From: Stenomitos rutilans HA7619-LM2
GTDB taxonomy: Bacteria > Cyanobacteriota > Cyanobacteriia > Leptolyngbyales > Leptolyngbyaceae
Direction of reading: 5' to 3'
DNA length: 64,000 nucleotides
NCBI GenBank assembly: GCA_019358945.1
Contig: JAHHIE010000032.1
Location: 1 to 64,000 of the forward strand
A program made the translations under genes and the position numbers. Below are positions 332-63,115 of the stretch, one piece after another. The notes beneath the pieces were generated by a model that did not search any database, was not told the DNA's origin, and saw only the letters and a program-made list of their open reading frames with translations. Position 1 is the first letter of the stretch. Each line of letters begins with the position of its first letter.

Positions 332-370
332 GGGGTTGAGCCGACATAAAGGCAAAAAGGTGCCAGATGG
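332..370. repeat. Left terminal inverted repeat of the Tn3 element
   Basis: 39 bp starting GGGGTTGAGCCGACATAAAG, read inward. It matches the right end at 3699-3737 with one mismatch at the fourth base. ATCGC lies directly outside. Confidence 0.92.
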
Positions 371-389
371 GCTAGAACGCTTTCTGTAT

Positions 390-3359
390 CTACGCTCCGT
401 CAATGTGAATCGGCAAGGCAATAGCTGTCTCTAACGGCTGTGGTTTTTGCTGGAAATCGACGACATAATCGCCATAACGCTTAAGATGACGCGTGAGATA
501 AGGACTCAGCGTTTTGAGCATCGCTCGGTCTACTCGCATCCCCTCTGCACTTAATGCTTGGATGGCTAATGAAATGTCCACTGTATTTTGCAGAATCACC
601 GCACTAGCGACCAGATCCAGATATTTCAGTCGTTTCTCCTGCTCTTCGGGATCGTTTTCCGTAATCACGCCTTGCTTGCCAAAGAAGAGCCAGTCCACAA
701 AGCGGTTATAGTCCTCGACGATATTGGTGCAAGCGGTGATCTGACGGCGTAGACCCACATCCGAAATGTAGCGGAGTAGAAAAAGCGTGCGGATCACCAG
801 CCCTAAGGCTTGAAAAGCCTGATAAAGGCGATTCCTGCGACTGTAGCTACCCAATTTACGAAGCAAGGTGGAAGGTAATACCTTGCCTGCCCGGATGGAT
901 AAGGCGACTCGGAGCATGTCTTGCCAGTGCGTTTCAATCAGTGCCCAATCAGCCGTGCCCTTAAACAGCGGTTCAAGATAAGGGTAAAGCTCTTCCTGAC
1001 TAGGTTTGAGGAAGGTTAAATCCTTCCAGTTACGGATGCGCGGCATCAACTTGATGCCCAACAGATAGGAGAGTCCAAAGACTGGCGTGGATTGCCCTTG
1101 CGTATCGGCATGAAGGGTATCGGGCTGAATCTCAGAAGTGTTCTTGAGCAAGCCATCGAGAATGTAGACAGCTTCCCACACGCCACAGGTGATGAAGTGG
1201 GTGAACAGAGCGATATAGGTATCCGAGATGTGATGATAGGCAAGACCCCCATAACCGCCATAGCGGATGTGATACTCCGACATCAGGTTGTTCTCGTAAA
1301 TCGCAACCTGACTGCCGTCGGCTGCTGCCGTTTTCCCTGTGCCCCAAAGTTTGGGGAGTTGGAGTTGATTGTACGCCTGAATGAGATCGCGGCTCGCGGC
1401 TTCAAGTTTAGTCGCATCCACATGCCGTCGATTCGTGTAAGACAGCATATGGGACGTGACCAAGCCGCGTGTGTGTCGTGCGGTTTGATTCGGACCGAGA
1501 TTACAGCCATACCCAAACGTGGTGAGAATGTAGCGCTCCATCGGCTGTTCCAGCTTCGGTTCCGATCCAGAGGCGGGTCCAAAGTGACGGGTCCAATGCA
1601 GCCAATGTTCGGTGTTGCAGAGAATATCCAGGAGGCTCCGCTCCGGTAACTGCTCCCAAAGCGCCGCTGCCAGCGTGTCCGCTCCGGGTGGTTTGGGTAG
1701 TGCTTTGATCCGTTGTAAGACGGGGACACCTTGAGGTGAGAGATTGAACTGCTTCGAGGCTTGGCAAGCCTGGTCTACCTGCCGTGCAGTTTCGGTTAAT
1801 TGCGTGCGCAAGGCGGTCACAAACTGGTGCGCCTGAGCAGGCAAGCTGAGTTCAGCACAGTACTGCGCGAGTTGCGGTTCACATTCGTGCCACGAGAGCA
1901 GTTGTTCACGAAAGTCAGCATAGCTCTCTGAACCCATCACACAGGCATCGCCCGTTTTTAAGTCCAATGCCAGATAGCTGAAGACGCAAACTTCGAGCGG
2001 TTGCCGTGCCAGGCGCTGGGCTTTGCCTGTCCCATCAACGACTAATTGTCGCCAGAGAGTGCTGATGAAGGAAAGATCCAACCCAGCCGGGAACCATTGG
2101 CTCCGGCGCTGTTCCTGCCCCAGGATAAACTGCACCGCCTCAACGAGAGACTGATCTTGGCTGGTGGAACGAATGTCCAACGAGCGCACCAATTGGAACA
2201 ACTGCTTCCGGTAATGGCGATAGAAGCGCCACAACAGCGGTCGGTAGTTGTCACTGTTGTAGCTGGCAATCTCCTCACATTGCAGCAGCAGTTGTGGCGC
2301 ACCGCCATGCAGCTCCAGAACGGCTTGCACCTGCTCACCTAAGGTCGTGGCACTTTCCGGTGCCACAGCAGCAGTCAGCACCTTGGAATACTGTTCCAGT
2401 AGCGTTTTGGTTTGGCTCAGGTGTGATTCGCGCAGTGCCACTAAGCGAGCTTTTGCCTGTTGTTTGATCCGCTGCATGCGCTTGAGAAACATCTCCACCA
2501 GGTGGTCACGGGTTTGGACCTGGGCTTGATACAGCAGGCAGAGGAGGAGTGCTCGTCGCTTTTGGGGTTGATGCTTGCGCAACTCAGCGCTATGAAGGGC
2601 TTTGGCTTGAGCGGCAAAAGACTGTCGCTTGGTGCTGGGCAGTCCTTGCAGTAAGCGTTTGGCCTCCCCAAAGGTCATGAGTTGGTTAAACTTCGTTTGT
2701 AATTGTGTCAGGTGCGCGAACGTCGCGCTTTTAGGAGGCGCTTTGAGCAAATTGAGGGAAGCCTGCGTTGCGGGCGTTTCACTCAGCAGGAGCTGATCCA
2801 GGTAGGTTTGCTCCGCTGTTGATAGACCCTCTGAAATTTGTTGAAACAGGCGGCTATTGGTCGTTGCGCGCATGTGACTGACGAGATGATCTAAGGTGCT
2901 GAAGGCAGGCAACTCATAGCGCTCTTTGATCAGCAATTCGACTGCCACATTAATCAAATCGGCGGGGTGATCCTTGGTGAGCGCGGCGGCGGCAACTTGG
3001 TCTTGTAGGTAGGCTTGAGCGTTTTGGTCATAGGGTTGAATCTCCAGATAGCGTCGAATTGCAGCGTGATAGCGACGTAAGGCGCGCCGTGATGGCACTG
3101 CCGCAATCGAGTCGCGCAGTTGTAAGTGGGCGCGCAGATGCTGAATGATGCTGGCTGGAATCGCTGCTGTGACAGGAAAATAGCCCAGTCGTTGAAACGT
3201 TTTGAGTAACACCAGCACGCTGAGTTGTCCGCTTCTCGTGCGAGCTTCAGCTTGAGCAAAGGCTACTTCAGCAGCACTCGGCGTGTACAGTGCGTCCAAT
3301 TCTGTTGATGTCAGTGAAGACTTGAAAGTGGGATAAGCCGTACGCTCTAATGTCGTCAT
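390..3359 (-). CDS. tnpA: Tn3-family transposase TnpA
   Basis: This 989-residue protein has the usual length of Tn3-family transposases (about 950-1010). The N-terminal DUF4158-type region is recognisable (residues 1-160, ending in LISKERYELP-like sequence). The C-terminal DDE catalytic region carries typical Tn3 signatures: FGYGCNLGPNQTARHT, a DGSQ motif with the first acidic residue, LHADTQGQSTPVFGLSYLLG with the second, and IVEDYNRFVDWLFFGKQG before the C-terminus. TnpA binds the 39-bp ends and carries out replicative transposition. The gene ends 20 bases from the left terminal repeat. It has no frameshift, so the transposase is probably functional. A closely related but fragmentary copy lies at 59.7 kb. 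Confidence 0.95.
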   Translation of the reverse strand: MTTLERTAYPTFKSSLTSTELDALYTPSAAEVAFAQAEARTRSGQLSVLVLLKTFQRLGYFPVTAAIPASIIQHLRAHLQLRDSIAAVPSRRALRRYHAAIRRYLEIQPYDQNAQAYLQDQVAAAALTKDHPADLINVAVELLIKERYELPAFSTLDHLVSHMRATTNSRLFQQISEGLSTAEQTYLDQLLLSETPATQASLNLLKAPPKSATFAHLTQLQTKFNQLMTFGEAKRLLQGLPSTKRQSFAAQAKALHSAELRKHQPQKRRALLLCLLYQAQVQTRDHLVEMFLKRMQRIKQQAKARLVALRESHLSQTKTLLEQYSKVLTAAVAPESATTLGEQVQAVLELHGGAPQLLLQCEEIASYNSDNYRPLLWRFYRHYRKQLFQLVRSLDIRSTSQDQSLVEAVQFILGQEQRRSQWFPAGLDLSFISTLWRQLVVDGTGKAQRLARQPLEVCVFSYLALDLKTGDACVMGSESYADFREQLLSWHECEPQLAQYCAELSLPAQAHQFVTALRTQLTETARQVDQACQASKQFNLSPQGVPVLQRIKALPKPPGADTLAAALWEQLPERSLLDILCNTEHWLHWTRHFGPASGSEPKLEQPMERYILTTFGYGCNLGPNQTARHTRGLVTSHMLSYTNRRHVDATKLEAASRDLIQAYNQLQLPKLWGTGKTAAADGSQVAIYENNLMSEYHIRYGGYGGLAYHHISDTYIALFTHFITCGVWEAVYILDGLLKNTSEIQPDTLHADTQGQSTPVFGLSYLLGIKLMPRIRNWKDLTFLKPSQEELYPYLEPLFKGTADWALIETHWQDMLRVALSIRAGKVLPSTLLRKLGSYSRRNRLYQAFQALGLVIRTLFLLRYISDVGLRRQITACTNIVEDYNRFVDWLFFGKQGVITENDPEEQEKRLKYLDLVASAVILQNTVDISLAIQALSAEGMRVDRAMLKTLSPYLTRHLKRYGDYVVDFQQKPQPLETAIALPIHIDGA

Positions 3360-3698
3360 GCAGGAAAACCACTGAAACGGTTCTCGTGAGCATAAAGCCT
3401 GCCCTTTCGCTCATGGATGGCGCAGGCGTCGTTCCCCTCTCAATCTGAGATTAGCTGTCTCAAAAAGTGGCTGGACTAGGATTGAACTAAAACTAGCTTT
3501 TGTAGTACGTTAAAACCCCGCAAACTCGTGAGACAACCCGAGCCGTCAGAGTGTGCCGCAAAAATGCTATAACCCAGACCCAGTCGTCAAAACGACGTTG
3601 TCTCATCTTCCCGGCTAGTTGCCTCCCCAGCAGAAGGGCGGCTTTGAGTTCAACGGATTACTGCTTTGCTCAAACTCAGTCTCGACAGGGCTTCTAGT

Positions 3699-3737
3699 CC
3701 ATCTGGCACCTTTTTGCCTTTATGTCGGCTCAATCCC
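3699..3737. repeat. Right terminal inverted repeat of the Tn3 element
   Basis: 39 bp, an inverted copy of 332-370 with a single mismatch, followed by the target duplication ATCGC at 3738-3742. Confidence 0.92.
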
Positions 3738-3823
3738 ATCGCCTTTTTGTCCCGAATCGGTTCCACCTTAATGGTTGATCCGGCAATCGGATGGTTGGGA
3801 TTCTGACCCTTGGGAAACGGCAT
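3738..3823 (-). pseudogene. Tyrosine recombinase, N-terminal part, split by a Tn3 element
   Basis: From an ATG at 3823 the minus strand encodes MPFPKGQNPNHPIAG, then STIKVEPIRDKKAI, where the Tn3 element interrupts. The frame joins that of 1-331 (ARIKKILADRPRDL) if one ATCGC copy is dropped. The N-terminus is short, with no full SAM-like core-binding domain, so the intact protein was a compact catalytic-domain recombinase. It may be similar in design to the 177-residue enzyme at 60019-60552. Confidence 0.8.
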
Positions 3824-4313
3824 CGCGATCGTCTTTTTTCTTGATTAACTTTTCAGTATTTTAGCTTAAAGACTTAATAAGCTGAACATCACCTGTCTAG
3901 ACCGACCTCCCAGTTCACCACGTTCAAAGCCTTTCTCAACAGTCCTTCCAGCCCCTCTTTCATCTCACTAACTTTTCGTCAAGAGTTAATGAGGAGGGAA
4001 GCGATGTCATTCCTTTGATACAACCATGGATGTTAAGAGGAATTCACGAAAGCTAATAAACACAACCCCAACTTGAATCTAGCCGTGCTCTCGTACGCTT
4101 CATATTGTGTCTTGGAATATAAACTCTTGAATGGAAAAGCCAATAACGTGATCTAAATCACATGCTTTGGGTACTTTCTGCATAAAGTAGAATAATGTCC
4201 ACACGAGACACTGACTGGCCATTTTAAGAGGCGGAAGGATAGATGTCACAGGATAACCTTTCTTCTAAATAACCAGGAATCCAAAAATCAATATGATGGA
4301 CTAAAGCTTGCCT
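3824..4313. other. Intergenic region without a recognisable gene
   Basis: AT-rich sequence upstream of the WD40-GTPase-TIR gene and upstream of the broken recombinase. No open frame with recognisable content was found on either strand. It probably carries promoters for both flanking genes. Confidence 0.4.
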
Positions 4314-4348
4314 TTACTAAGGGTTAGACTTAGTTTAACCCTTAGTAA
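4314..4348. promoter_or_regulatory. Inverted repeat before the WD40-GTPase-TIR gene
   Basis: TTACTAAGGGTTA (4314-4326) is repeated in perfect inverted form at 4336-4348 around a 9-base loop. It ends 27 bases before the ATG at 4376 and has no T-run after it. Position and symmetry suggest an operator or a 5' UTR hairpin controlling the downstream gene; this is inference. Confidence 0.5.
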
Positions 4349-4375
4349 TAATGCTGGACAATCGATACAGAGTTC

Positions 4376-7300
4376 ATGAGTGAAAATGTAAGCGATCGAG
4401 ATTTTATAGGACTTAAACTTCAAAGTAGTTTTCTAGGGCACGAAGACTTAATTAACGACGTTGTTTGGTCGTTTGACGGCTGTCTTCTTGCTTCTTCATC
4501 ACAGGATAGAACCATTAAAATTTGGGACATATCTACTGGAAAATTACAAACAAGTCTTGAAAATAAAGGACGTTCAGGTTCACTCAAAAGTGTGGCATGG
4601 GCAGTAGATGGACGAACCTTAATTGCTGGAACTACCACAAAAAGTCTTCGAAGCTGGGACCTCAAAACTAATAAAGCAAGCTCACATCAAGGTCACTCTG
4701 CCGCAATCAATTGTGTCGTCTTTTCATCAGATGGAAGGAGGCGCGCGTCCGCTTCGAGTGACAAAACTATTAGAGTTTGTGACGCGAGTAGTGGAAAGCT
4801 ATATCTAACCTTAAAAGAGCATTCAGGAGAAGTTCTAAGTGTAACTTTTTCACAAGATAGCCAATTAATTGCATCTGGTTCTACCGATAAAACGGTTCGG
4901 TTATGGTCAACCAAAAATGAAAAATCGCTTAGAACTTTTCATGGGCATACAGGTGAAGTTCTAAGTGTAGCATTCTCGCCGAACCAGCAGATTCTTGCAT
5001 CAGCCTCTCAAGATTGTACGGTAAGAATTTGGGATCACAAAAAGAAAAGATTACTAAATGTATTAGAGGGACATACTGATGCAGTTACGTGTGTCTCATT
5101 TTCTTCTGATGGACGTATTCTTGCCTCTAAGTCAGCTGATGGGACTATTCGATTCTGGAGATGTGATACTTGGGATCTTGTGAAAAAGATAACCGAATCA
5201 GCTCTTCAAGGCTGGCAATCCAATCTTGCCTTTCATCCTCAAGAACCTATTTTAGCTACGCTTGATCAGAATAGTTACGCTGTCCGGTTATGGAAGCTGG
5301 ATATTGAGGCTATTCTTAATAAACCATCTGAAGTACCATCTGTTCGCTACACTAACGCCAAAGCTGTTTTATTAGGAAATACAGGTGTTGGTAAGTCCGG
5401 ATTAGGGCTTGTTTTAACTGGCCAAGCTTTTGAAAAAACTGATTCAACTCATGGTCGGTATGTCTGGACGCTTGATAATTATGAATTTAAAGCTGATGAC
5501 CATACCGAAATTCGCGAAATACTCTTATGGGATTTGGCAGGACAGCCTAATTATCGCCTTATCCACCAATTACATTTGAACGAAGTTGCGGTTGCTTTAA
5601 TTGTATTGGATGCTCGTAGCGATATAGATCCATTTGCCGGAGTACACTATTGGAACCGAGCTTTAACTGAAGCACAGCGTCTTCAGGGCGATTCAGTTCT
5701 ACCACTCAAAAAGTTTCTGGTTGCTGCACGAGTAGATAGAGGAAGCATTGATGCTAGTTCTCAAAAAATTAATGCGCTCGTACGAGATCTAGGTTTTGAT
5801 GGTTATTTCGCAACAAGCGCTAGGGAAGGCTGGAATATCCCAGAGTTAGCTGAAGCGATTCGCCAATCCATTGATTGGAACGCAATGCCATCAGTAAATT
5901 CAACAGAACTTTTTCAGTCAATCAAAAATTTCTTGATAGGAGAGAAGAAAGAAGGGCGCTTATTATCGAGTGCTGAGGATTTATACCGAGCTTTTTTACA
6001 GGCTAAACCTACCTCTTTAGCAACGGAAGATTTGCGACCGCAGTTTGAGACTTGTATTGGTCGGGTAGAATCACAGGGGCTTATACGTCGACTTAACTTT
6101 GGTAACTTGATCCTTCTGCAGCCAGAATTACTGGATGCTTATGCTGCTGCATTGGTTATGGCGGCAAAAGATGAACCAGATGGATTGGGTTGCATTGCTG
6201 AAACTAGAGCAAGCACAGGAGATTTTAGAATGTCTGGAGATGAACGAATCCCAGACAAAAAGCAGGAAAAACTGTTACTCATAGCAACGATTGAGGACTT
6301 GCTTCACCATGAAATTGCTCTACGTGGAAGTTCTGAGGATGGAGAGTATTTGGTTTTCCCCTCACAATTCACTCGTGAGCTACCTAGCGTGTCAGATCCA
6401 CAAGGCAAGGCTGTAACTTTTGAATTTGATGGGGCTATTCAAAATGTTTACTCAAGGCTAGTAGTCCGCCTTTCACATAGTGGCCTTTTCAAAAAGCGGG
6501 ATATGTGGAAGAATGCGGCTATTTTTACAACTCATAGTGGTAGTAGCTGTGGAATGCTGTTGCATCAAATTGAAGACGGGAGAGCAGAATTAACGCTTTT
6601 CTTTGATGAGAGTACAAGTGAAGAAATGCGTTTTCAGTTTGAGGAGTATGTAAACACTTATCTTCAGCGACAGGTTTCACTAGAAAGCTTCAGAAGGAAG
6701 AGAATTTTTGTTTGTTTAGAATGTTCTACACCTGTTACCGAGCAACAGGTAAAAATGCGTAGAGAGCGTGGCTTTGATTGGATTAGGTGTAATGTTTGTG
6801 ATTTTAAGGTATCTTTACTGGATCGTGAGGCACGTTTGACAAACCCTCATCTCTCTTCTGATGCTGAAGCTAGTAATGGTAATGTAGATGCAGCAACTTT
6901 AGCAGTTGCTGAAATCGATCAAGCTGCTGATACTAAACGGGATCGTGAAACAGCAGCATCTGTTCTTCAAGGGAAGATTGTTACCCAGGACTTTGATGTC
7001 TTTCTTTGCTGCAACGATGAAGACAAAGCAACTGTTAGAAAGATCGGTGAAAAGCTTAAGGAAGCTGGTCTACTGCCGTGGCTAGACGAATGGGAGTTGA
7101 GACCTGGTATACCTTGGCAGAGACTATTAGAGCAGCAGATAACACGAATAAAATCTGTTGCTGTTTTTGTAGGTAGTGAAAATTTAGGACCTTGGGAAAA
7201 CCAGGAGTTAGAGACTTTCCTACGTGAGTTTGCTGGCGGAAGAAAACCTGTGATTCCTGTGATTCTTCCTGATGCCTTAAAGCAGCCGAAGTTACCCATC

Positions 7301-16700: not shown

Positions 16701-19700
16701 CCGTCTTCACCCAAGAGCGTATCAGCGCCGTCGTTGCCAAACATGAGGTCGTTGCCACTGCGGGCTTCGATGCGGTCGTTACCGCTGCCGCCGAAGAGAA
16801 TGTTGTCTTGAGCGTCCCCGACGATCGTGTCATTGCCCTGCGACCCAACCACATCTCGGAAGTTACGGAGAATATCCACATTGCCGAAGCCGTCGATCGC
16901 TCTTCCTTCCTCCAGATTGATGAATGCTGATCCTGGATCACGGCGATAGCTAACGACGTTAATACCTGTACCACCGTCCAGCGTGTCATTACCAGCATTG
17001 CCAATTACTAGGTCGTTTCCGGCTCCAGCCAGGATATCATTTTCAGTTGCGTTACCAATCAAAACGTCGTTGAAGTCTGAGCCAATGATGTTTTCCAGGT
17101 TTTGCAGGGTGTCTGTTGTGCCGAAGCCATCGGTGGCAGATCCAGCAGCGATCGCAAAAGTAGGTTCGGGATCAACCGTGCCGCCTGGATTGCTATAGCT
17201 GTTGGTTTCGTCAATGTTGACCACAACGCCAGTCGGAGCGTTGGCATAGCTGACGGTATCAATATCATTACCGCCATCAATCAAATCGTTGCCTGCATCG
17301 CCCACCAGAAAATCGTTGCCCGCATCACCTACTAGCTGGTCATCGCCTGCGCCGCCGCTAAGCGTGTCATCACCGGCTTCGCCAAAGAGTTGGTCATTGC
17401 CACCTTTACCGTCAATGATGTCGTTACCACTGCCAGCAAGGATAAGGTTAGCTTGGTTGTCACCCACCAAGCGATCAGCGAACTCAGAGCCAATAACATT
17501 TTCAATGTTTCTGAGCGTGTCCACTCCACCGAAGCCATCTGAAGCCGTGCCAAGTTCTAAGGAGACAGAAACCGCACCAGGAGCATAGCGGTAATTGAGT
17601 GTATCAATATCGTCGCCCCCGTCTAAAGCGTCATTGCCAGCATCTCCCAAGAATTCGTCATTGCCAGCTTCGCCAAAGAGTTGGTCATTACCATCTTTAC
17701 CGTCAATGATGTCATTACCTTTTCCGGCGAGAATGATGTTAACTTGGCTGTTACCCGTGAGGCGATCGGCGAACTCAGAACCAACAATGTTTTCAATGTT
17801 CTTTAGAGTATCCAGTCCACCTGAGCCATCCGATGCAGTTTCAAATTCCAAGGAAACTAAAACCGCACTCGGATCATAGCGGTAACTGGCTGTATCAATG
17901 CCATCACCACCATCTAGCGTGTCATTTCCCGCATTGCCAATCAAAACATCACTGCCTCCTAGTCCTGCAATCGCGTTGTTTTGACTATTACCGATTAGGA
18001 TATCAGCGAGGTTGGAACCTAGGATTCCTTCCAGATTTAATAATGTATCGGTTGTGCTATAACCATCCTGAGCTTTTCCAGCCGCAATCTCAAATGATGG
18101 TTCTAGATCCGAAGAATAAGCTTGATGGCTATATCCAGTTGTTGTGTCAAGATTGACGACTACTCCTTTAGGGGAGTAGAGGTAGGAAGCTACGTCAGTA
18201 CCGGCACCACCGTCAATGGTGTCGTTTCCAGCTCCACCAATCAGCAGATCGTTATTCGCACCGCCATCAAGGAAATCATCACCATCTTTGCTGTCTTTGC
18301 CTATATCACCCCCATATAGAATATCCTGACCTTCTCCACCGTAGAGGAAGTCACCTTGGTTGCCGCCATTCAGTAGGTCATTTCCGCTGTCACCCCAAAG
18401 CTTATCAACACCATCGCCTCCATAGAGTTCGTCAGAATTATTACCTCCATGCAATTCATCATTGCCTTTATTTCCAAAGAGCTTATCATTATCATTATCT
18501 CCGTAAAGAAAATCGCCTTGATTTCCACCGCTGAGATAGTCGTTGCCAGCTCCCCCATGTAACTCCGCTGATACATTAGCAGAAACAATAATTTTGTCTT
18601 TTCCGGTGTCAGCAAAAGCAACAATATTAGCAACGTTGCTGTAAGAATCTTGTTGACCAAAAGCAGTCACACTGAAGTCTGAATTGAGCGTGAATTCCTC
18701 ATCAATTACATTCTTGCTTACATTGCGTTTTGCACGATCGCTCTCTGCTCCCATATTAAAACGCAACTCACGAGTAGCTGCATCATAGGTAGCAAGATTA
18801 GGCTTGAACTGTGCAGTATTTCCTGCGCCACCGCTGTTGCCAAAAGTAAAAATGTTGATCCTTGGTCCAAATTCAAATTTATACGTTTCAACTAACTTTT
18901 CAAAATCACCTGTAACAGCGCTCAGAAAAGCCTTGACTGGATTCAAAGTAATATGCTCTGCATATCCAGTTAGTCCTGCGGTAACAGCACCTGTTGCGTT
19001 AAACTTACCGTTACCGCTACTGAATTCGTTGGACAATTCAGCATAGCGTAGCTGTGAACCTTGACCGGGGAGGAAAAACTTAACATCACCACTAACATCA
19101 AATTTTACTGACGCTTTAGCAACATTCTCTATCCCGACGTTAGCAGATGCGTAAAGCTCTGAGTGAAGATTGAAGACTTCCTTGCTACGATCAAGATAAA
19201 ATCCGTTTAACAAGTTATCACTAGTAATACCAAAAGAGTCGTAACCGATCGTTAGTCCAGGACTTCCAAAATTGATTTCCGCTCCAAGCTCAGCATAGAT
19301 AGGAACTGGAATTGGAACCGGAATTGGAATTATCTGAGTGTAGTTAAAGTTAGCCTTCAAACCAGGAGTTGAATACTCGATCAGCTTTACATCAGATTTG
19401 CCAAGAAAAAGATTAAATGCTGTAGTTGGTGTTTCAAGAAACGGTAAACTGAAACGATTTCCAGTCAAGGATTTTATCTTAGGGATAAATTCATTTAGAC
19501 CTTGCTGGTTGAGCGGGCTGGTTGAAGAAGCTGAAGGGCTTATGATGTCGCCATTTGCTGAGAGGCTAAATTCACCTAGATCAATGAAACCACTGGAAGC
19601 TGACTGAGCTGATTTTACGGCATTAGTAACGCTTGAGAAAGCATTGATAGTCTCTATCAACCCTGCATCGATAGTTTTATCATATTGCTTAGCGAGACTA

Positions 19701-46823: not shown

Positions 46824-48434
46824 TTAGCTCTTGCTATCATTTTTCAATGAGTGAAGCAGCTCAAGCAGTAAATGTCCTAGCTTCCCATCAAGTAAGGATT
46901 GAATAAGTAACAGACTACTCGTAGAAAGCATCAGCTTGCTGATATCCTCTCCATTGCCGTTTTGAAAAGTATAGATATTGGAGTCTCCCAAAACTCCGGC
47001 TTTGGGGGCTAATGCTTGGGCAATTTCAACGAATTTGGGTAATTCAGGGAGCATTTCTTGGATCAAATGTACTATTCGATCAGCATCTGTAGCTGGGATC
47101 AGATTGTGGCGAGTACCATCTGCTTTGGCTAAGCGTTCGATAATTTTGGCTTCATTCTCGACGGCATCAGCAGCTATTTCCGTTTTTAACTTTTCACGGT
47201 TGGATTTGGCTTGTTCAATCTCTGTCGTAAGCTCTTCTGCTTTTTTGGCACGATCAATTTCATGATCTAGTCTTTTTTGTTCTGCCTGAATAATCGAGAT
47301 TGCAACTTCAATTTCTTCGATTTCTAGTGCTTTATGGACTTTACTTCTCAAGGACTCTACCGTTTCTTTAATCCGCAGCTCGGTAGTTTCAATAAATTCT
47401 CTAGTACTGAATTTAGAAGTTTCGATCTCATCTTGCAATTTCTTTTGTTGTTTATCTTTATGTAGTTCAATATTTAGCTCATGATCAATCTTCCCTTTTT
47501 CAAATTCTTCAAGTTTTTTTAGCCTGCCAAGATGTTTCAGTTGGCGGTTGACCTCTATTTCTTCTATAGAACTACTTATCTCCCACTCTTTTTCTCGTAT
47601 ATCACGACCGATACCTAACTTATATTCCTGCATTTGTTTTTCTGCATCTAATTCACGCTTGTGTATTTTCTCTTCTGTATCTAGTTCTTTTTTGCGAGTC
47701 TCAAGAATTGCATTTTGTATGACATCTGTTCGATGCTGAATTGCTTGAGCATCAAAGTAGTTAGTGGCTGTATAGTCAGAGGTTTCATCAATCTCACCGA
47801 TAACAAGACCTGTAATCTTCAAGCCTAGATTCGACAAATCTTCTTTTAGTAGCTCTTTAGCTTGAGCACCAATATTTATTGCTGAAGTTTCCCCTGATGG
47901 ATTTCCTTCATTATCTTGTTGAGAACGGTTAGCTTGAAGAATAATAGTTCCTCGGCTTTTTTGGAGTTCATCTAGTGTATTTATTTTACTAGTCAATCCC
48001 CGAATCACAGACTCCGCACGTTTTCTTACTGCTTTATCAACTGCTACTGCTGAAATGCGATTTCCTTCATACAAAAAATTCATAGCTTTTTGTACATCTT
48101 CAATACAGACATAAACAGTTGCTTGCACAGTAGCTCGCAGATTATCCAGAGTACGAATATTAGAGACTTCTATGTTAATAGCAAATTCTTGGGCTGGTTC
48201 TACTGAATACAATTCATTAAAAGCTTTCATGACCCGGTTTTTTGCTTTTGTGAACTGGATGTTTTTAGGCAAGAGTTTAACCACACACAAAGTGACCGCT
48301 ACAGTGACCACCGCAGTCAATGCAACTGGCCATAATGGGAAATTTGTGGGAATTTTCTGTGGGGACGATACAGAAGGAGTGGCACTAGACTGAGCTACGA
48401 TAAAAGGCACTGATTGATTAGTTTTCGTTATCAT
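46824..48434 (-). CDS. SPFH/flotillin-like membrane protein with long coiled coil
   Basis: The 536-residue protein has one membrane helix near residues 30-55 (VALTAVVTVAVTLCVVKLL). An SPFH-like domain follows (about 70-230: FAINIEVSNIRTLDNLRATV, then LLKEDLSNLGLKITGLVIG). A highly charged coiled coil of about 200 residues and a C-terminal oligomerisation-type region complete it. SPFH proteins form membrane microdomain rings. Upstream lies a 229-bp Tn3-derived element. The lysozyme-peptidase gene follows 113 bases after, so the pair may act together at the envelope. Confidence 0.8.
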   Translation of the reverse strand: MITKTNQSVPFIVAQSSATPSVSSPQKIPTNFPLWPVALTAVVTVAVTLCVVKLLPKNIQFTKAKNRVMKAFNELYSVEPAQEFAINIEVSNIRTLDNLRATVQATVYVCIEDVQKAMNFLYEGNRISAVAVDKAVRKRAESVIRGLTSKINTLDELQKSRGTIILQANRSQQDNEGNPSGETSAINIGAQAKELLKEDLSNLGLKITGLVIGEIDETSDYTATNYFDAQAIQHRTDVIQNAILETRKKELDTEEKIHKRELDAEKQMQEYKLGIGRDIREKEWEISSSIEEIEVNRQLKHLGRLKKLEEFEKGKIDHELNIELHKDKQQKKLQDEIETSKFSTREFIETTELRIKETVESLRSKVHKALEIEEIEVAISIIQAEQKRLDHEIDRAKKAEELTTEIEQAKSNREKLKTEIAADAVENEAKIIERLAKADGTRHNLIPATDADRIVHLIQEMLPELPKFVEIAQALAPKAGVLGDSNIYTFQNGNGEDISKLMLSTSSLLLIQSLLDGKLGHLLLELLHSLKNDSKS

Positions 48435-48524
48435 TGCTCTTTAGGCTGTATAACTTTATCGGATAATAAAGGAGAAAACGGCTGAAATCCTGCGCTTTAT
48501 AGGCTTCGTTAAAGGCGCGGTCCC

Positions 48525-48753
48525 GGGGGGTGAGTAGCACCAGAATAGAAAACAACGTTAAGGCTGAAACAGCTATTGAGAAGGCATTTCAAAAAGCAAT
48601 TTTCAGTCTCACTGAGACGTACCAATTAGCCCTTAGGCTAATTGGTACAGAAATCTGGAACGAGATAGCAGGGGTTTCAAGCTCTTGTTTTTCAGCAGGT
48701 TCAACTGGTACATCTCTTAACGTGACTTTCTGGTCGGATGATACTCAAACCCC
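48525..48753. mobile_element. 229-bp Tn3-derived miniature element (TIME), copy 1
   Basis: 38-bp ends lie at 48525-48562 (GGGGGGTGAGTAGCACCAGA) and, inverted, at 48716-48753 (outer end GGGGTTTGAGTATCATCCGA). Both end inward in ACGTTAAG, the classic Tn3 end. The direct repeat GTCCC flanks it on both sides (48520-48524, 48754-48758), proving transposition. The inside has no gene but holds a palindrome (GTACCAATTAGCC...GGCTAATTGGTAC). It is a non-autonomous element moved by a Tn3-type transposase in trans. A same-length inverted copy lies at 62887-63115. Confidence 0.92.
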
Positions 48754-48939
48754 GTCCCTATAGAAAGTACTTTTCAAGGATTATATTTCTTAGGGATTAT
48801 ATTTTAAGCATCAATATAACTCCTTGCACAGGAATTATATTGATTCTCTCTAACAATTGTTTACAAAATGGCAACTTGCTAATAGTCAGTATCGAATCTC
48901 TGAAATGATGCTCTGGACACTGAGAACGTTGAGTTTTTT
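48754..48939. other. Intergenic region without a recognisable gene
   Basis: Short AT-rich stretch with ATTATATT repeats between the miniature element and the structured region at 48940-49290. Confidence 0.35.
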
Positions 48940-49290
48940 GATCTGGGTCAGATCAGCTCCTACCATTTGGTGGAGAGCAGATCGGGGTAAAATGAGGAGC
49001 GAATACCGTTGGCGAAGTGTGACACGAAGTCACGGTGAGTAAGTGAGGAGCCCACTCCTCTAGAGTTGTGCCTAACTCTATCCCCACCCAAAGTAGCGTT
49101 GCTGATAACAGCAGGGTTTCAGAGCTAACGGGGAATGCCTGAGGATACATCTAGCCGAACGAAGCATCCGGGATAGGGGGAGACCGGACGAGGTAACGCA
49201 AGTGAACTCTTATCGAAGCCCCGTTACGGTAGCTCAGTGAAATGGCTGAGACACTGAATTCAAAAGGCATTGAGATGCAGTCGAGTAGGA
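48940..49290 (+). ncRNA. Structured RNA-like sequence, possibly a truncated group II intron 5' part
   Basis: The stretch has several short hairpins (GTGTGACACGAAGTCAC; GAGGAGCCCACTCCTC; TTGCTGATAACAGCA) and a TAACGCAAGTGAAC block. A similar block (TAACGAAAGTGAAC) occurs in the intron at 53541. No reading frame is convincing. Intron class, ends and truncation point cannot be fixed by eye. Confidence 0.35.
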
Positions 49291-49316
49291 CATCACTGCC
49301 CTACCCTCATACTGGC

Positions 49317-49985
49317 TCAAACAGAAGCAGCCAGAGCATTCTTTACAGTTGTATGATGCCAAATCTTTCCTCTTTTAGTGGGAATATTTTGGACGTTCAA
49401 CCAAGCCGCGATCGCGCTGAAAGACTTGCCGGAGCGACGATGTTTTTTCATCAGGGCAATGACTGCTGTCTCAGCAGCGTCAACCACTAGGGCTTTGGCG
49501 ACGGCCCTTTGACCGAGCTTAGGCGCACCATAGGCATAGCCGCCCTGTTCTGCCTTCGCCTTCCGCCCCCCTTGGGTACGCTCGTTGATGACATCACGTT
49601 CCAGTGTGGCGACGGCTGCCATGACAGTGAGGATCATGCGGCCGGTGGGGGTGGAAGTATCAACCTGCAGGTCAAGCAGTACCAGCGCTTTGTTATGGGG
49701 TTGTAAGGTGTCCTCGACGAGTGCCAGCACATCACGGGTATTCCGGGCAATACGATCGAGCTTCAAAGCAATAATCCCGTCTGCCTGAGTCCTGACCAGT
49801 TCCAGAGCCACTTGGAACTGAGGACGATGTTCCGCGTTTTTGCCGCTGCCGACTTCCTGAAAGACTTGGACGAGTTCGTGACCAAAGGCTTCACAATAGG
49901 CGGCAATCCGTCGCCGTTGTTCCGACAGCGAGGTGTTATCGGCTTGCGATTCACTGCTGACACGAATATAACCAACTAATTTCAT
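49317..49985 (-). CDS. Serine recombinase (resolvase/invertase family)
   Basis: The 222-residue protein starts at ATG 49985; the TTG two codons earlier is not needed. The N-terminal catalytic domain has YIRVSSESQADN with the nucleophile Ser, ALKLDRIARN and TPTGRMILTVMAAVATLERD. The C-terminal HTH contains GKSFSAIAAWLNVQNIPTKRG. By family it performs DNA inversion or resolution. A perfect 25-bp inverted repeat lies 28 bases upstream of the start and may be its site or operator. There is no resolvase in the nearby Tn3 elements, so it may serve the plasmid. Confidence 0.92.
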   Translation of the reverse strand: MKLVGYIRVSSESQADNTSLSEQRRRIAAYCEAFGHELVQVFQEVGSGKNAEHRPQFQVALELVRTQADGIIALKLDRIARNTRDVLALVEDTLQPHNKALVLLDLQVDTSTPTGRMILTVMAAVATLERDVINERTQGGRKAKAEQGGYAYGAPKLGQRAVAKALVVDAAETAVIALMKKHRRSGKSFSAIAAWLNVQNIPTKRGKIWHHTTVKNALAASV

Positions 49986-50013
49986 GTTCAAAGCCTATCT
50001 GTGATGGCTTCTT

Positions 50014-54054: not shown

Positions 54055-55374
54055 ATGAGCGAGTTAACGACTACGTATGAATGGAAGTCCATCCCCTGGC
54101 GCAAGCTGGAGCGGAAGGTCTTTAAGTTGCAAAAGCAAATCTACCGAGCCGCTGGTCGTGGTCAACGAGCAAAAGTGCGCAGGCTTCAGCGACTCCTGAT
54201 CCGCTCTTGGGCAGCCAGAGTTCTGGCAGTGCGACGAGTGACGCAAGATAATGCTGGCAAGAAGACAGCAGGCATCGACGGCTTAAAGTCGCTTCCACCG
54301 CCTCAACGGTTGTCCCTTGCCCAACGTCTTCAGTCTGGTTGGGGCAAGGCTTCTCCCACGCGTCGGGTCTGGATTCCCAAACCGGGTAACACCGAAGAAC
54401 TCAGACCGTTGCAGATTCCAACCTTAGAGGACAGGGCAAGACAAACCCTGTTCAAACTAGCGTTGGAAGCACAATGGGAAGCCAAGTTCGAGCCAAACTC
54501 GTTCGGCTTTCGCCCAGGACGCTCCTGTCACGATGCAATCATGGCGATCTACCTCCAGGTTTGTCATCAACCGAAATGGATCTTAGATGCCGATCTGGCC
54601 AAGTGTTTCGACACGATTGCGCAAAAACCCTTGTTGAAGAAGCTGAACGCCAGTCCGTTTGTCACTCGGCAAATCCGAGCGTGGCTGCGGGCAGGGGTCA
54701 TGGACAACTTCCAGTACAGTGAAACGCCACAGGGCGTGCCACAAGGCGGAAGTTTGTCACCCTTATTGGCGAATGTGGCGTTGCATGGCATGGAAACCTA
54801 CCTTGAGCGCTATGGCAAAGGGGCAAGGGTGATCCGCTATGCCGATGATCTGTTGGTGATCCATCCGCAACGGCAGGTCATTGAACACGCGCAACAGCTA
54901 CTAGGCAAGTGGCTGGCAAAGATGGGATTAGCCTTCAAGCCAAGTAAAACTCGCCTCTGTCACACCCTCGAAGCCGTGGATGGGCAGGTCGGGTTTGATT
55001 TCCTGGGTTTCTCGATTCGGCAATACCGAGTGAGTAAATATACATCCGGGCAGTCAATGAAAGGCTACAAAACGCTGATCCAGCCTAGCAAAGCAGCAAT
55101 GCAGAGACACCTTCAGCAATTGCAGACGGTGATTAGAAGCCACAAAGCAGCCCCACAAGTTGCTTTGATTCAACACCTCAACCCGATCATTCGGGGATGG
55201 TCGGCTTACTTCTCGGCACAGTGTAGTAAGAAGGCTTACGCCAAGCTGGATTACTTGCTCTATCAAAAACTGCGAGCCTGGGCACATCGTCGTCATCCTA
55301 ACAAGGGCGGACAATGGCGAGCCAGTCGCTACTGGCTAGTCAATCAAGGAGGAGGATGGGTCTTTGCTGCCTAG
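54055..55374 (+). CDS. ltrA: Group II intron reverse transcriptase-maturase
   Basis: The 439-residue protein has RT motifs in order: GIDGLKS, RPLQIPTLEDRARQ, FGFRPGRSCHDA, LDADLAKCFDTI with the first catalytic Asp, GVPQGGSLSPLLANV, VIRYADDLLVI with the YADD box, and GFDFLGFSIR. The maturase (X) domain contains LIQHLNPIIRGWSAYF. It ends WVFAA at an amber TAG. The same frame then continues into an HNH domain, so the protein was longer in the ancestor. It aids splicing and reverse-transcribes the intron. Confidence 0.92.
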   Translation: MSELTTTYEWKSIPWRKLERKVFKLQKQIYRAAGRGQRAKVRRLQRLLIRSWAARVLAVRRVTQDNAGKKTAGIDGLKSLPPPQRLSLAQRLQSGWGKASPTRRVWIPKPGNTEELRPLQIPTLEDRARQTLFKLALEAQWEAKFEPNSFGFRPGRSCHDAIMAIYLQVCHQPKWILDADLAKCFDTIAQKPLLKKLNASPFVTRQIRAWLRAGVMDNFQYSETPQGVPQGGSLSPLLANVALHGMETYLERYGKGARVIRYADDLLVIHPQRQVIEHAQQLLGKWLAKMGLAFKPSKTRLCHTLEAVDGQVGFDFLGFSIRQYRVSKYTSGQSMKGYKTLIQPSKAAMQRHLQQLQTVIRSHKAAPQVALIQHLNPIIRGWSAYFSAQCSKKAYAKLDYLLYQKLRAWAHRRHPNKGGQWRASRYWLVNQGGGWVFAA

Positions 55375-55785
55375 CAGGGAGAGAACCAGGTGCGGCTGCG
55401 TACTCACGTTCAAACTCCCATTGTCCGGCATGTCAAAGTCCAGGGCAGTCGCAGTCCTTTCGATGGGGACTGGAGTTACTGGGGCACCCGCAGGGGCAAA
55501 CACCCAGAACTCTCCACACAGATTGCCAAACTGCTGAAGCGGCAACAGGGAAAATGCTCACATTGCAGACTGTACTTTAAGTCAGATGACCTGCTGGAAG
55601 TCCACCATGTGGACGGCAAGCACCAAAATCATCAATGGGGCAATCTGACACTGCTACATCAGCATTGCCACGACCAAGTTCATTCCGGTATGCATGACAA
55701 GCACCCAGTGGTTGAGGAGCCGGATGAAGCGAAAGTTTCACGTCCGGTTTTGCAGACGAGTCGGGCGGGTGACCGTCCGGCTTAG
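55375..55785 (+). pseudogene. HNH endonuclease part of the intron protein, separated by an amber codon
   Basis: In the same frame as the RT, directly after TAG 55372-55374, come VRLRTHVQTPIVRHVKV, SPFDGDWSYWGTRRGK and the HNH domain CSHCRLYFKSDD, EVHHVDGKHQNH, LLHQHCHD. The zinc cysteine and histidine residues are present. A GTG at 55390 could start it independently. Otherwise the domain is lost unless the stop is read through. Confidence 0.8.
55717..55751 (+). ncRNA. Group II intron domain V
   Basis: GAGCCGGATGAAGCGAAAGT followed by TTCACGTCCGGTTT forms the domain V hairpin, with the catalytic AGC-type triad replaced as in many bacterial introns and a GAAA tetraloop. It overlaps the HNH coding end. 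Confidence 0.85.
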
Positions 55786-55821
55786 TCTAACCCGACCCCA
55801 GGTTCGCGCAAAAGGGCGAAG

Positions 55822-59613: not shown

Positions 59614-60016
59614 GGGGATTGAGCTGACATACGGAAAAAAAGTGCAACATGAGCTGAAATCCTTAGCCAGATTGAGTTTCAGAGAATCTGTCGAAGTGAG
59701 GCTGAGTATCGGGACTGCTGCTCGTGTGGCAAAAATGTGAACCACAACTCGCGCAGTACTGTGCTGAACTCAGCTTGCCTGCTCAGGCGCACCAGTTTGT
59801 GGCCGCCTTGCGCACGCAATTGACCACAACCGCGCGGCAGATAGACCAGGCTTGCCAAGCTTTAGAACAGTTCAACCTTTCACCCCAAGGTGTCCCCGTC
59901 TTACAACGAATCAATGCACAACCCAGACCACCTGGAGCGAACACGCTGGAAGCGGCCATCTGGGAGCTGGTTTAGCAGCTTAACGGTACTCTCTGTTCGG
60001 ATGATACTCAAACCCC
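59614..60016. mobile_element. Deleted Tn3-family remnant with mismatched ends
   Basis: The left end (59614, GGGGATTGAGCTGACATACG) is related to the end of the element at 332-3737, and its inner sequence is also similar. The right end (59979-60016, reading inward GGGGTTTGAGTATCATCCGA, ending GTTAAG) is of the 229-bp-element type. Only a middle piece of tnpA is left between. No 5-bp duplication matches (CTGAT and TCTCA). It is probably a chimaera from deletion or recombination. Confidence 0.75.
59724..59972 (+). pseudogene. Fragment of a Tn3 transposase gene
   Basis: About 83 codons closely match TnpA of the element at 390-3359 around its residues 487-575 (CEPQLAQYCAELSLPAQAHQ, then FNLSPQGVPVLQRI). 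Both the N-terminal and catalytic C-terminal parts are gone. It ends 7 bases before a 38-bp Tn3-type terminal repeat. Confidence 0.9.
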
Positions 60017-60018
60017 TC

Positions 60019-60552
60019 TCATAGCAATTCCGCCACTGCATCCACTTCGTCCTTACCGATCGCCAGATACTTCGCCAAATTCCCCAGGTCAACATGACCT
60101 GTTCGCTCCTGGAGCGTCTTCAAGGGCACTCCCTGCTTATAAAGCTTCGTCAGCCCAGTACGGCGGAAGCTGTGAGTGGATATGCCTCGAATGCCCAGGT
60201 AATCACAGGCTTTCCGCAGTGCCAGGTCTGCTGCTTGCCGGGTCAGATGTCCTTCCTGCTTTCCAGGGAAGAGATAGCCAGTGGTGAGTAGGTCAGCCTG
60301 GTCCAGGATGGCTTGTAGCTTAGTGGGGACTTTTACATCACGAGTCATCTTCGTTTTAGTCGTTCGAGCACGGAACACGATGCGATCGCGAATGATGTCC
60401 GATCGTTGCAACTTCAATGCTTCACTCACCCGACAGGACGTGTAGTAGCAAATGGCAAAGAGCAAGCGATGGTTATCCGGCAAGACCTGCATCAGCTCCT
60501 CTAACTGCTGCTCTGTTAAAACTTCCGCCTGTCCATTACGGTTATTTTTCAT
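60019..60552 (-). CDS. Minimal tyrosine recombinase (catalytic domain only)
   Basis: The 177-residue protein has all the catalytic residues: Arg in SCRVSEALKL, a Lys in the TKTKMTRDV hairpin, HSFRRT (HxxR), GHVDL and the Tyr in AKYLAI. It lacks the N-terminal SAM-like core-binding domain of standard integrases. It starts 3 bases after the end of the gene at 60556 and is probably co-transcribed with it. The broken gene at 1-3823 appears to have had a similar compact design. Confidence 0.9.
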   Translation of the reverse strand: MKNNRNGQAEVLTEQQLEELMQVLPDNHRLLFAICYYTSCRVSEALKLQRSDIIRDRIVFRARTTKTKMTRDVKVPTKLQAILDQADLLTTGYLFPGKQEGHLTRQAADLALRKACDYLGIRGISTHSFRRTGLTKLYKQGVPLKTLQERTGHVDLGNLAKYLAIGKDEVDAVAELL

Positions 60553-62886: not shown

Positions 62887-63115
62887 GGGGTTTGAGTATT
62901 ATCCGACCAGAAAGTTACGCTAAGGGGTGTACCAGTTGAAACTGCTGAAAAACAGGAGCCTGAAACCCCTGATATTCTGTTCTAGATTTCTGTACCAGAT
63001 GACTTAGAGTTTAACTGGTACGTCTCAATGAGACTGGAGATTACTTTTTGAAGTGACTAATGGGAAAGCATTTCAGCCTTAGCGTAATTTTCTGTTCCGT
63101 TGCTACTCGATCCCC
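62887..63115. mobile_element. 229-bp Tn3-derived miniature element (TIME), copy 2
   Basis: 38-bp ends lie at 62887-62924 (GGGGTTTGAGTATTATCCGA inward) and inverted at 63078-63115 (outer end GGGGATCGAGTAGCAACGGA). It has exactly the length of copy 1 and is its inverted, diverged relative, with the same inner palindrome region. The flanks (TAAAC, TATTA) do not match, so this copy is older or rearranged. Confidence 0.88.

Follow-up and report, generated by a model that had tools for sequence, protein, structure and literature searches.

The described systems closest to the miniature Tn3 element (TIME) reported here are, judged by description, IS101 and TIME244. IS101 is a 209-bp element of plasmid pSC101 that has a functional resolution site and is mobilised by the Tn1000 transposase (PMC4133298, PMC13367494). 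As portrayed in the available text of those papers, it resembles our element in its Tn3-type ends, the lack of a transposase, a near-equal size and a resolution site (putative in our TIME), whereas it differs in host phylum and progenitor transposon, and its in-trans mobilisation, transposition and resolution were shown by experiment while the TIME described here is known from sequence alone. TIME244 is a 244-bp element of Enterobacteriaceae that resides mostly on plasmids (PMC13367494); by its description it shares a putative res site and inverted pairs with the family described below, its relationship to Tn21 and the resistance genes that it bounds being its own. The elements TIME1 to TIME4 of Pseudomonas (PMC4133298) are also Tn3-derived miniatures with 5-bp duplications, but their ends are different, and in the available text a res site is only speculated for them, whereas in our family a stretch matching the interior is seen in autonomous relatives. 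Cyanobacteria go unmentioned in the available portions of both papers, and the portion of a review of prokaryotic MITEs at hand lists cyanobacterial MITEs (Nezha, Anabaena, Microcystis), none of which is linked there to Tn3. No description of Tn3-type miniatures in cyanobacteria was found in the open-licence literature as far as its text was accessible, which is consistent with an earlier remark that such elements are little described in this phylum. As such, our results would extend res-bearing miniature Tn3 elements, which in the literature portions examined came from Proteobacteria, to the cyanobacteria.

The element lies in the window, by which we mean the whole 64,000-nucleotide stretch of Stenomitos rutilans DNA that was analysed (Table 1). 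It belongs to a cyanobacterial family of putatively res-bearing TIMEs, is well explained as such and is of the IS101-like kind that is already known. At 229 bp and with no transposase gene it falls within the 50–500 bp of TIMEs, its 38-bp ends fall within the ~38–40 bp of Tn3-type terminal inverted repeats, and the flanking GTCCC is a 5-bp target duplication of the usual length (sometimes 6 bp). The two ends are identical at 28/38 positions, for which the binomial chance is ~4e-10 for one fixed position pair, and the chance of meeting a 5-bp duplication at one given offset is ~1 in 1024. When the right end was used as a pattern with up to three mismatches, three matches were obtained in the window, versus a mean of 0.00 over 100 shuffles; the ends were not listed as an inverted repeat by a search with exact 9-base seeds, being too diverged for that method. 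The earlier note had called the element a non-autonomous 229-bp miniature Tn3 element with a perfect GTCCC duplication, and its ends, size, family and flanks bear this out. That note had also expected further copies, or a transposon with such ends, to exist elsewhere; both were found. The element lies upstream of a Band_7 domain gene (46824–48434, minus strand), ~90 bp from its start codon. A 77-aa open frame crosses the element, has no Pfam match and was rejected as a gene of the element, the frame not being conserved among copies (an open forward frame is present in the 48525 copy only, 1/27).

Table 1. Positions of the miniature elements in the window and of the complete autonomous relatives
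Feature	Position	Strand	Remarks
TIME, 229 bp	48525–48753	+	Oriented as autonomous relatives: tnpA-side end left, tnpR-side end right
Left 38-bp terminal inverted repeat, GGGGGGTGAGTAGCACCAGAATAGAAAACAACGTTAAG	48525–48562	+	Direct sequence reading
Right 38-bp terminal inverted repeat, reverse complement GGGGTTTGAGTATCATCCGACCAGAAAGTCACGTTAAG	48716–48753	-	32/38 identical to G414 transposon end
Target site duplication GTCCC, left copy	48520–48524	.	Direct reading
Target site duplication GTCCC, right copy	48754–48758	.	Direct reading
Probable res (resolution) site, 96 bp	48617–48712	+	Autonomous relatives have the matching stretch in the tnpA–tnpR gap
13-bp inverted repeat, 4-bp spacer, predicted subsite I	48619–48648	.	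Inside res-like stretch; putative
Orphan 38-bp end, same type	59979–60016	-	34/38 identical to right end of 48525 element
Second TIME, same family, 229 bp	62887–63115	-	81% identity over 222 bp; profile gives full length
G091 (L071) transposon	1356–5226		3871 bp; ends match 38/38; TTTAG on both sides
G091 (L071) tnpA	1420–4425	-	1001 aa
G091 (L071) res-like stretch	4437–4535
G091 (L071) tnpR	4528–5178	+	216 aa
Planktothrix agardhii p1 (L114) transposon			3923 bp; plan as G091; no duplication
Nostoc NIES-3756 (L116) transposon			3869 bp; plan as G091; no duplication
Nostoc ATCC 53789 (L117) transposon			3869 bp; plan as G091; GTAAA on both sides

Four complete autonomous relatives of 3869–3923 bp were recovered, each with ends matching one another at 38/38 positions and with divergent tnpA and tnpR genes that enclose a res-like stretch; 5-bp duplications flank two of the four. 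The TnpA and TnpR proteins tested have Tn3 transposase and resolvase domains by Pfam. A fifth, partial relative in G414, a genome of the window's own taxonomic family, comprises a transposon end, the res-like stretch and tnpR, together with the N-terminal 373 residues of TnpA (64–66% identity to TnpA of Nostoc and G091), where the contig breaks off; when its transposon end is compared with the left and right ends of the 48525 element, 29/38 and 32/38 positions agree. All five transposons (Nostoc ATCC 53789, Nostoc NIES-3756, Planktothrix agardhii p1, G091 and G414) have 38-bp ends similar to those of the TIME (24–32/38 identical to the 48525 ends) and the res-like stretch in the same order, and, unlike the TIME, they encode TnpA (~1000 aa) and TnpR. 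The end and res-like stretches of the TIME align in order with loci L070/L071, L114, L116 and L117, as expected of a derivative of a Tn3-family progenitor. L070 splits the TIME profile at position 76, positions 2–76 corresponding to the tnpA-side end and 76–188 to the stretch beside tnpR, and the TIME therefore reads as a transposon minus tnpA and tnpR. We consider it about 92% probable that the TIME derives from a cyanobacterial Tn3 transposon by loss of tnpA and tnpR, with both transposase-binding ends and the res site left. In Nostoc ATCC 53789 an autonomous transposon and a miniature are 310 bp apart; with such likely partners named, trans-mobilisation and the need for res become directly testable. 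In a tree of the res stretch (~100 columns), the 229-bp TIMEs did not fall within the autonomous transposons sampled.

The interior of the TIME had not been remarked upon in the earlier note, nor had the second copy in the window. Profile positions 90–188 match positions 4437–4535 of L071 (E 5.9e-16), within the tnpA–tnpR gap, and also match that gap in L114, L116, L117 and L151, so that the candidate resolution site is placed between tnpA and tnpR as in the parent. Across the 276 pairs that can be formed from 24 TIMEs (fewer for copies with lost ends), identity averaged 72% and 72% at the two ends, 72%, 67% and 73% in the res-like parts, and 57% and 47% in the spacer. Of 12 separate pairs, 10 had a res-like stretch more conserved than the spacer; in the other two, Stanieria/Chondrocystis and G376b/Nostoc ATCC 53789, spacer conservation was equal or higher. 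This pattern fits selection on the ends and res and is not a formal test of it; the conservation of the interior would be accounted for if res has been retained. The conserved interior is likely a res site, albeit a putative one. The strongest alternative, which we nonetheless regard as improbable, is that the interior is conserved for another role, as a promoter or the site of another recombinase, and that cointegrates are resolved by homologous recombination alone. Of three res subsites, only one can be recognised as a clear palindrome, and the flank exchange in Cyanobacterium HL-69 (see below) could have arisen by homologous recombination between its 99% identical copies. Against this, the stretch in autonomous relatives occupies the usual position of res, running from beside the start of tnpA to the tnpR start codon, and in Scytonema and Nostoc UHCC 0870 it accompanies tnpR even though the neighbouring tnpA is only 24–26% identical to the cognate gene. 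A tyrosine recombinase site was suspected from the palindrome and a neighbouring integrase-type gene (60019–60552), and was dropped because the stretch recurs between tnpA and tnpR, a serine resolvase gene.

The putative res-bearing TIMEs form a family whose members were found in several collections. A plasmid search with the 229-bp element returned eight records, all from cyanobacterial genera, three of them covering at least 80% of the query; no feature is annotated over the match in seven of these records, and the eighth has no annotation of any kind. Cyanobacterial plasmid annotators thus leave these TIMEs unnamed. A pattern for the junction of the res-like stretch and the right end identified 14 stretches in a genome collection, 11 of which scored >100 bits with the profile and were all titled cyanobacteria; of the other three, L081 is partial and L080 and L088 look like chance. 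Five viral contigs matched the junction pattern and none of the five matched the TIME profile, and carriage by phages or viruses was accordingly rejected. In a phylum sample, 17/386 genomes gave a match to the element, seven of them (G127, G188, G194, G225, G244, G303 and G367) being short matches that lack support from the profile and are attributed to chance. At least 27 distinct copies belong to the family, mostly of 229 bp, with a 272-bp group (G199, G376) and some of ~240–251 bp. Among the 21 copies judged to have both ends, eight are flanked by perfect 5-bp duplications (GTCCC, AGTAC, TCGAT, GTAAT, CTTAT, ATGAT, CTATA and GAAAT); a further 10 TIMEs with both ends have none, bringing the total to 8/31, where chance would give ~0.03 for a fixed offset, and leaving 23/31 copies with both ends and no perfect duplication.

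These copies bear on the question of whether the 48525 element is instead the decayed remnant of a full transposon that was deleted in place and never moved as a 229-bp unit. Agreement of its ends at only 28/38 positions would suit such decay, as would a genome in which no close helper was found, but identical length and architecture recur in other genera and differently flanked copies have perfect 5-bp duplications (8/21). The small form itself was therefore inserted repeatedly, and decay in place appears very improbable. No empty site was found among relatives or plasmids, the plasmids giving TIME matches only; the closest candidate was an 86% match to the left flank in G060, ending ~80 bp short of the insertion.

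The genome of the host itself (7.28 Mb in 119 contigs, 99.9% complete by tool estimate) yielded six matches: the 48525 element, the second window copy, one decayed copy, on contig C114, with 70% identity to the 48525 element, the orphan end and two short matches. The second copy is flanked by TAATA and GTTTA, with no duplication. It is scarcely credible that this copy and the 48525 element moved together as a 14.6-kb composite (TIME-COMP): they are inverted around cargo, like the TIME-COMPs in the available text of PMC13367494, but there is no duplication at the outermost ends, where the flanks read in element orientation differ (GTCCC versus TAATA), and the 48525 copy is bracketed by a duplication of its own. 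The orphan end directly abuts a resident-type tnpA fragment (83% identity over 83 aa), the two together spanning 59718–60016.

A close cognate tnpA or tnpR was not found in this genome with a Tn3 transposase model and protein searches. The model gave one match, a resident gene at 390–3359; a cognate-type TnpA was 24% identical to the resident TnpA and 21% to a fragment, and the best match to the cognate TnpR was 39%. The resident gene belongs to a tnpA-only Tn3-family transposon at 332–3737 (989-aa TnpA, 46-bp ends beginning GGGRTTGAGCCGACATAAAGG), the only one in the genome found to have an intact Tn3 transposase. This transposon was rejected as the parent of the TIME, its ends (332–377 and 3692–3737) agreeing with those of the TIME at only 13–18/38 positions. 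One end of the resident transposon is crossed by a tyrosine recombinase-type open frame that is truncated at the start of the window. A serine recombinase at 49317–49991 was likewise rejected as the cognate resolvase, being ~31% identical to the TnpR of autonomous relatives. Just downstream of its gene is a 47-bp stretch (49262–49308) that recurs, whole or in part and at 85–98% identity, in several related genomes. In view of these results, the statement in the earlier note that the element had recently moved is weakly supported: the intact duplication speaks for it, while the divergence of the ends (28/38), the 81% and 70% identity of the copies in the same genome and the failure to find a close tnpA or tnpR there weigh against it. 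Movement in trans, also claimed there, we do infer, because a transposase gene would not fit into the element and one is present in relatives whose ends are similar.

Starting from what is visible in the sequences, namely the ends, the duplication, the family and the internal stretch shared with the tnpA–tnpR gap of autonomous relatives, the following course may be proposed. A Tn3-family TnpA supplied in trans would nick the TIME ends and join them to the target with a 5-bp stagger, and replication would then produce a cointegrate. TnpR in trans, or homologous recombination, would resolve the cointegrate at its two res copies, the expected outcome being one TIME per replicon with 5-bp duplications.

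A trace of recombination between copies is provided by plasmid pCHL69-1 of Cyanobacterium HL-69, which carries an inverted pair of 99% identical TIMEs (about 17319–17549, minus strand, and 72557–72785, plus strand) with flanks GATAA/GTAAC and GTAAC/GATAA. Such an exact exchange of flanks was seen for this pair only, among all pairs of 25 copies. It would be explained if two TIMEs had inserted and an inversion had later taken place between them, for which either TnpR acting at res or homologous recombination would do; for TIME244, inverted pairs with inverted interiors are described in the available text of PMC13367494, whose authors proposed TnpR. Among relatives, the host genome included, at least 11/115 have an element match that covers 170 or more of its 229 bases, versus at least 2/115 with a cognate TnpR at E 1e-40; in the phylum sample, at least 5/386 genomes have a cognate TnpR at E 1e-60. 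These counts are lower bounds, since 2–8 candidates were scored per genome, and at most three for the element match. Because of the exchanged duplications in HL-69 and the excess of carriers of a TIME match over carriers of a cognate tnpR, we tentatively speculate, while thinking it rather unlikely, that a long-lived cyanobacterial lineage of res-bearing TIMEs outlasts its helpers in most carriers and acts as scattered resolvase sites, at which TnpR supplied in trans by passing transposons inverts, fuses and separates plasmids.

Several additional features of the transposons and of the window were observed. Loci L113, L115 and L118 (Scytonema NIES-4073, Nostoc UHCC 0870) share the res–tnpR module beside a TnpA ~24–26% identical to the cognate one, and res–tnpR modules thus appear to be exchanged between Tn3 lineages. 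TnpR is fused to a plasmid pRiA4b ORF-3-like domain (PF07929) in L066 (72–1289, minus strand), and long tnpR frames are also present in L151 and other Nostoc UHCC 0870 loci; in HL-69 a separate pRiA4b ORF-3-like gene lies beside a Tn3 transposase, making it a recurring passenger of these transposons. In four genomes (loci L132, L147, L163 and L117) the outer part of one end has given way to TTCGCCAAC.GTATCAG or something very similar, and the sequence further out is not conserved, which would suit a possible alternative end. Finally, the window contains a group II intron at 54055–55791, with a reverse transcriptase frame and a match to domain V.
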